Positions 1,075 to 4,254 of a stretch of DNA of 60,890 nucleotides are shown here, piece after piece. The notes under the pieces are model-generated. The model had not been told where the DNA came from, searched no databases, and worked only from the letters and a program-made list of their open reading frames with translations. This DNA is from Petrachloros mirabilis ULC683. GTDB lineage: Bacteria > Cyanobacteriota > Cyanobacteriia > Thermosynechococcales > Thermosynechococcaceae. A program made the translations under genes and the position numbers. The DNA is taken from assembly GCF_009939295.1 (NCBI RefSeq), contig NZ_WVIC01000013.1, positions 32,001 to 92,890 of the forward strand. The letters are read 5' to 3'. Positions within the stretch are counted from its first letter, which is position 1. Every line of letters begins with the position of its first letter.

Positions 1075-1269
1075 TGTGGAAAACTCCCATTTTTCTGTGG
1101 AAAACCCTGTGGAAAGCTTGTGGATAACTCCAAAAAACTGTGGATAATTTTTTCGTTTTACACAGCCTGTGGAAAACTCGCCCACTTTTTCCACATTTTT
1201 TCCACAGGCTAAGATCGGGTTAAAGCCAGATAGAGAAAGGATTCTAAAACTTTTTCCACATTTTCCACA
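1075..1269. other. oriC: oriC: cluster of eleven DnaA boxes
   Basis: Eleven 9-mers matching the DnaA box consensus TTWTNCACA, or one base off it, are packed into 195 bp. Boxes reading on the minus strand are at 1075, 1096, 1108 (TGTGGAAAG, one mismatch), 1119 and 1139 (both TGTGGATAA) and 1168. Boxes reading on the plus strand are at 1156 (TTTTACACA), 1187, 1198, 1252 and 1261 (TTTTCCACA). The orientation therefore flips mid-cluster, with most minus-strand boxes to the left and plus-strand boxes to the right. The cluster sits directly upstream of dnaN, a known origin location in cyanobacteria. DnaA itself is not in the window. This is very probably the chromosomal replication origin. Confidence 0.9.
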
Positions 1270-1317
1270 GCCCCTACTATCTACTACTATTTATATATTT
1301 TTATAAGAGTAGTAGTA
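1270..1317. other. DnaA-trio repeats and AT-rich DNA unwinding element
   Basis: After the last DnaA box (1261-1269) come a short GC-rich spacer (GCCC), then CTACTAT (1274-1280) and CTACTACTAT (1281-1290). Read on the other strand these are repeated 3'-GAT-5' triplets. They are followed by an A/T-only tract (1289-1306). This box / GC / trio / AT-rich order is the basal unwinding system described for Bacillus subtilis oriC, where DnaA spreads from the box onto single-stranded trios. A mirrored set, AGTAGTAG (1308-1315), lies on the far side and gives a perfect 8-bp inverted repeat with 1281-1288. Confidence 0.8.
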
Positions 1318-3519: not shown

Positions 3520-4254
3520 ATGCATCCTTGGCTAAAGTCAGTGATTTTACGTAAATTTCGCAGATTTGAGTCTCCTCGTCTGCACCAACCCCATTCATCA
3601 TTGCGTTTGACTTTAACCTTAATGGGGTTAATGGCGATCATTGGAGTGCTTAGTGGAGCTGGTGGCTACATTTTTGGGCGGGAATCCTTAAAAGGGGTCA
3701 CTCAGCCCTTGTTGAATCCTTTTTTAAACAGCTCACAGGATCCAGACCAGGCTCCACGCCAAGGATCTGACTTTTTGAACGAAGGTGAGATTATCGCTCG
3801 CATTCGAGCTCAAACCAGCGGCGTTGAGCAGCAAAATACCGACTCTACGCCCTCTAAGTCACCCTCATCTAACAACAGCAGCGAAGCCAAGTCCACAGAG
3901 CCTACTACAGTGACCTTGCCCACCACGGTTGAAGATCAAGGCATCCGCCTAGAAATTCGTTCAGTAACGCAAAACCAATCTGATTTAACACTTAACGTGG
4001 CGCTTCAAAACACCAGCGAAAACCCGACTCAGTTTCTCTATTCTTTTATCGATGTCGTTGATGATCAAGGTCGTGACCTCCCGACGGAAACCTTGGGGTT
4101 ACCCGCTGAGCTAGCACCTAAAAGTGATGTGTACATCGGCACGATTAAGGTAGAGGCACTGGGCTCAGGTGTGAAGTCTTTGTCTTTAACCCTGGCTGAC
4201 TATCCCCAACAGTCTGTCAAGCTCGAGGTTGCCGATATTCCGGTTAAAGAGTAG
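3520..4254 (+). CDS. membrane-anchored hypothetical protein, DUF4352-like fold
   Basis: 244 residues, function unknown. A basic N-terminus (to ~25) is followed by one transmembrane helix at ~27-48 (LTLMGLMAIIGVLSGAGGYIFG), a Ser/Thr/Asn-rich linker (~85-127), and a beta-rich C-terminal domain of ~110 residues. That domain contains the pattern LNVALQNTSENPTQFLYSF...VDDQGR, which resembles the immunoglobulin-like DUF4352 domain of surface proteins. The soluble part should face the periplasm. The gene starts 72 bases before the DUF21/CBS membrane protein and may share its transcript. Confidence 0.7.
   Translation: MHPWLKSVILRKFRRFESPRLHQPHSSLRLTLTLMGLMAIIGVLSGAGGYIFGRESLKGVTQPLLNPFLNSSQDPDQAPRQGSDFLNEGEIIARIRAQTSGVEQQNTDSTPSKSPSSNNSSEAKSTEPTTVTLPTTVEDQGIRLEIRSVTQNQSDLTLNVALQNTSENPTQFLYSFIDVVDDQGRDLPTETLGLPAELAPKSDVYIGTIKVEALGSGVKSLSLTLADYPQQSVKLEVADIPVKE

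Follow-up and report, generated by a model that had tools for sequence, protein, structure and literature searches.

Organization of the locus

The window analysed, a stretch of 60,890 nucleotides (G000:C23:32001-92890; the assembly comprises 4.12 Mb in 79 contigs), contains an array of DnaA boxes followed by a short GC spacer, DnaA-trios, an A/T-only tract, a reversed set of trio-like triplets and an ORF for the beta subunit of DNA polymerase III (Table 1). We take this ORF to be dnaN, from its sequence and the literature on dnaN-linked origins; in tblastn comparisons it shared 50-69% identity with cyanobacterial loci. The original prediction had described eleven DnaA boxes in 195 bp upstream of dnaN, a 4-base GC spacer after the last box and an A/T-only tract after the trios, and all three were borne out.

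Table 1. Features of the predicted origin region (window coordinates), with the mirror block of Thermosynechococcus for comparison
Feature	Position	Strand	Detail or basis
DnaA-box array, outer half	1075..1176	-	Six boxes: 1075-1083, 1096-1104, 1108-1116, 1119-1127, 1139-1147, 1168-1176
Weaker box TTTTACACA, among the outer six	1156-1164	+	Box-match scan
DnaA-box array, inner half	1187..1269	+	Four exact TTTTCCACA: 1187-1195, 1198-1206, 1252-1260, 1261-1269
GC spacer GCCC, 4 nt	1270..1273	.	Sequence; equal length in relatives
DnaA-trios (3'-GAT-5' on minus, CTA on plus)	1274..1289	-	1274-1279, two trios; 1280, extra T; 1281-1289, three trios
A/T-only tract TTTATATATTTTTATAA, putative first-melting region	1290..1306	.	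Sequence
Mirror trio array GAG TAG TAG TAA	1307..1318	+	Trio-like triplets; no adjoining DnaA box
dnaN, DNA polymerase III beta subunit, 372 aa	1431..2549	+	ORF
Mirror block in Thermosynechococcus, TAGTAGTAGTAG

The 11 box matches, each with at most one mismatch to TTTTCCACA, occupy exactly 195 bp (1075-1269). Shuffling led us to expect about 20 boxes of such quality per 60.9-kb window and about 0.06 per 195 bp, and the observed density is far beyond this chance expectation. Exact copies of TTTTCCACA occur 44 times in the 4.12-Mb genome, with seven in the array and two just past dnaN, and the array is the largest cluster of this sequence in the genome. The tandem pair adjacent to the trios, formed by the last two boxes, is kept in relatives.

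DnaA boxes were also observed at two other places. Two exact boxes lie head to head (TTTTCCACAGCCTGTGGAAAA, 2660-2680) right after the dnaN stop codon and could serve in dnaN regulation, as a terminator-like hairpin or as a DnaA titration site. In addition, a second, smaller cluster of four exact boxes on one strand is located on contig C55 (L144 1454-1515, equivalent to G000:C55 34453-34514), where it is apparently intergenic and adjoins an ORF resembling NAD-dependent epimerases; a search for a trio module at this four-box cluster found none.

Spacer, trios and A/T tract

Downstream of the last box come, in order, GCCC, CTACTA, a single T, CTACTACTA, 17 nt consisting of A and T only, and GAGTAGTAGTAAG. 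The five 3'-GAT-5' triplets of the original prediction are present as five CTA on the plus strand, but not in one register, as the extra T splits them into groups of two and three and just two are in register when counted from the box. The regularity attributed to these trios was therefore overstated. Specifically, all 12 same-family relatives with dnaN-linked trios have slip-free runs of 12-15 nt, mostly 15 (CTACTATTACTACTA, CTACTATAACTACTA, CTACTACTACTACTA or close forms), and the window's run is less regular than that of its kin. The 1-nt slip might weaken the trios; it may also be an assembly error, the genus being represented by one genome among those searched.

The published rule for the basal unwinding system (BUS) asks for a good DnaA box no more than 16 bp away from a run of three or more 3'-NAN-5' trios (PMC8287927). 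This rule still holds for the window, because the block of three trios begins 11 nt past the exact box at 1261-1269, the first trio beginning 4 nt past it. Thus, a box no more than 16 bp from trios, at least three consecutive trios and an A/T-rich region beside them are all found here. Exact TCCACA-N4-CTACTA occurs at two places in the window, with 0.14 matches expected when up to one mismatch is allowed; the other copy, at 3892-3907 inside an ORF, is a lone match and probably due to chance.

Conservation of the module in cyanobacteria

Comparison of dnaN upstream regions, which had been proposed as a check, revealed boxes, the 4-nt GC spacer, trios and the A/T tract in this order beside dnaN in 83 of 109 dnaN-linked loci (two sets, overlapping in a few genomes). 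The spacing was nearly invariant, and the spacer in relatives was almost always 4 nt long. A looser box-trio pattern was dropped, its matches across the class being mostly coding noise.

In Thermosynechococcus, which belongs to the same family, the box-trio module was looked for beside dnaN and not found there; it was observed elsewhere on the chromosome, with 7-11 boxes (L246-L256). Linkage to dnaN is therefore not an absolute marker of the origin. In several family f2 genomes of 1.6-1.7 Mb, the module is found no more than 150 bases from the start of the contig as deposited (L132-L135, L137-L141), consistent with records having been cut at the predicted origin.

Probable identity of the region as a chromosomal origin

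Cyanobacterial oriC typically adjoins dnaN and contains TTTTCCACA boxes (PMC4674748), and unwinding by the DnaA of Synechococcus elongatus in vitro requires both cognate boxes and trios (PMC8287927). Besides the elements described above, with their order, spacing and conservation, we observed genes for both DnaA and DciA (E=5e-19) in the host genome. The DnaA, encoded on another contig, can be aligned along its entire length with DnaA chain 8btg (E=1e-133), and the residues at the positions of B. subtilis I190, K222, E223 and R264, counted by hand in this alignment, are the same. The recurrence of the module beside dnaN and the conservation of these ssDNA-contact residues support the original prediction of an origin with a Bacillus-type order of box, GC spacer, trios and A/T tract. 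We consider it very probable that this is where a cyanobacterium of the Thermosynechococcus family has its chromosomal oriC, opened by DnaA via the BUS. This assessment leaves aside the mirror trios, whose role is the least certain step.

By homology with characterized origins, DnaA binding, strand opening, helicase loading and use of this origin by the cell would be expected here. DnaA would occupy the box array, and DnaA on the box pair 1252-1269 would guide an oligomer onto the minus-strand trios at 1274-1289. The oligomer on the trios would melt the duplex into the A/T tract at 1290-1306, and helicase loading would come next, probably with DciA.

GC skew, suggested in the original prediction as a test of the origin's position, proved uninformative: no clear switch was seen on contig C23, nor near the homologous site in two relatives (G019 and G027; 20 places sampled each), and skew was rejected as proof of position. 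A flat, irregular skew is what might be seen if the site were a relic, in a polyploid chromosome that starts at several places without DnaA, as in Synechocystis, with the array mainly titrating DnaA or regulating dnaN. DnaA-independent replication from multiple origins is indeed known in several cyanobacteria with irregular skew (PMC7198777). However, the boxes, the 4-nt spacer and the trios are kept across families, the host DnaA retains its ssDNA-contact residues, and a promoter or titration site would have no need of trios, so that we regard a relic as quite unlikely and prefer a working, DnaA-opened oriC.

A mirror trio array downstream of the A/T tract

Downstream of the A/T tract lies a further element, absent from the original prediction. 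GAGTAGTAGTAAG (1307-1319) forms an inverted repeat with the trios, so that trios are present on each strand, and the mirror array begins exactly where the A/T tract ends, as in the origins of Thermosynechococcus and of members of families f19, f24, f30 and f36. The probability of such a 10-mer somewhere in the window by chance is not negligible; what gives the array weight is where it lies, together with the comparative data.

Trios, A/T tract and reversed trios follow the DnaA boxes in all 11 sampled genomes of Thermosynechococcus (genus g6, named via locus L005, which is G016). The same layout was found in three f36 genomes (genus g206), in G334 (f19, g90), in G065 (f24) and in G098, which is Kastovskya (f30). 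An unanchored mirror pattern was rejected as evidence since its reversed control also matched many genomes, and matches were counted only where a DnaA box precedes. Of six sampled g90 genomes, five carried the box-anchored pattern, as did Kastovskya and two genomes of g206; its reversed control matched none of 331 genomes. With the window included, mirror arrays at oriC-like sites occur in six genera and five families (f1, f19, f24, f30 and f36), a minority of cyanobacteria; rough arithmetic that treats genera as independent gives about 0.4 genera by chance (28 allowed positions, at most 160 genera), versus five seen. Among the 83 loci with the module, a strict AGTAGTA downstream of the trios was found in two (0.37 expected by shuffling of 60-nt stretches) and a relaxed form in seven (0.8 by shuffling), four of the seven being from Pseudanabaena. 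The strict form being confined to these two loci, mirror trios were rejected as a general cyanobacterial feature. In the dnaN tree, the window's clade is supported at 97/96 and its other ten members are without the arm, apart from Thermosynechococcus; this scattered occurrence suggests that the arm was gained more than once or often lost.

In the 11 aligned Thermosynechococcus sequences, boxes and trios were almost invariant (mean pairwise identity 0.98 and 0.99, respectively), and the mirror arm came close to them with 0.92, a value partly lowered by gaps where the repeat number varies. By contrast, identity was 0.59 in the A/T tract and 0.64-0.68 in the flanks. The A/T tract in these sequences ranges from 18 to 28 nt, and the arm remains composed of TAG repeats. 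Across several genera, departures within the arm (GAG, CAG, TAA and AAG) preserve the central A of a trio at the cost of pairing with the other arm; in these few cases, a site for protein on ssDNA appears to fit better than a hairpin.

We rejected the arm as a second full BUS: in 16 loci, the 34 nt that follow the arm core contained no DnaA box at up to two mismatches, and the window likewise showed none beside its arm. Judged by its sequence, the plus strand at 1307-1318 may instead offer DnaA a second ssDNA site, on the strand opposite the main trios, perhaps aiding the loading of a second helicase. After melting, the TAG block of this strand would capture DnaA, possibly supplied by the outer box array, and the second strand would thereby be marked. 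As a tentative proposal, which we ourselves rate as doubtful, some cyanobacterial origins may carry trios on both strands, head to head around an A/T tract, with DnaA engaging one strand at each end of the bubble and two helicases being set up symmetrically. If this is true, bacteria that lack DnaD would have, in two-strand trios, a means of bidirectional loading written into the sequence itself.

For the window taken by itself, the mirror array could be due to chance; it is Thermosynechococcus, g90 and g206 that carry the argument. The nearest relatives lack the array, AGTAGTA is as rare downstream of trios as noted above, and chance alone should yield 0.9 copies of AGTAGTAGTA per window if one mismatch is tolerated, all of which would fit a chance or neutral duplicate. 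Yet the array directly adjoins the A/T tract, just as it does in the other origins with this layout, and the reversed control of the box-anchored pattern was empty; we consider chance or neutral duplication less likely than not. The arm might also act as a hairpin or cruciform of CTACTACTA and TAGTAGTAG and not as trios. Single-strand folding does pair the two arms, with -5.6 and -6.3 kcal/mol for the window strands (z -1.6 and -2.1) and -7.3 for one Thermosynechococcus sequence (z -2.8). However, the arm changes listed above are uncompensated in the other arm, an observation that is only suggestive given the small numbers, and two sequences with such changes fold less distinctly (z -1.7 and -1.0), so that a hairpin role seems unlikely to us.

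Comparison with known origins

Modules of box, spacer and trios are known across bacteria, and a cyanobacterial trio system of the Bacillus type is not new either (PMC8287927). The strand-opening module itself is thus known; for the mirror-image trios on the other strand, patchy among related origins, we found no description in the open-licence papers searched. To our knowledge, no mirror array has been reported for the oriC of S. elongatus. Origins with mirror trios, those of Thermosynechococcus foremost, offer a short block that can be mutated apart from the main boxes and trios, and the slipped trios of the window raise the question of how much change of register a DnaA filament tolerates.

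The oriC and BUS of S. elongatus resemble those of the window in being dnaN-linked and in needing boxes and trios for opening by DnaA in vitro (PMC8287927, PMC7198777). The BUS of B. subtilis likewise has tandem boxes, a short GC spacer, 3'-GAT-5' trios on one strand and an A/T tract (PMC6669920, PMC8287927, PMC10721633), whereas the trios of the window are split into two and three by one base and are accompanied by a mirror array on the other strand. The expected helicase loader also differs, being DciA, the gene for which was found in the host, versus DnaD/DnaB/DnaI in B. subtilis. Thermotoga maritima oriC has an eTrio, three TAG repeats of the melted strand that are required for DnaA binding; there, a DnaA oligomer seated on the box cluster takes hold of the TAG repeats, and the trios next to the boxes have only an assisting part (PMC10316083). 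The three TAG that follow one another without interruption on the minus strand of the window resemble this eTrio; the description consulted mentions no mirror block in T. maritima (PMC10316083). In B. subtilis, an ssDNA element specific to one strand, the DnaD recognition element (DRE), has been proposed to recruit the second helicase via DnaD, in a study that also raised the question of how the second helicase is placed in bacteria without DnaD (PMC10201434). The DRE, however, is the complement of the trios and binds DnaD, whereas the mirror array of the window is a separate block past the A/T tract that looks like a DnaA site.
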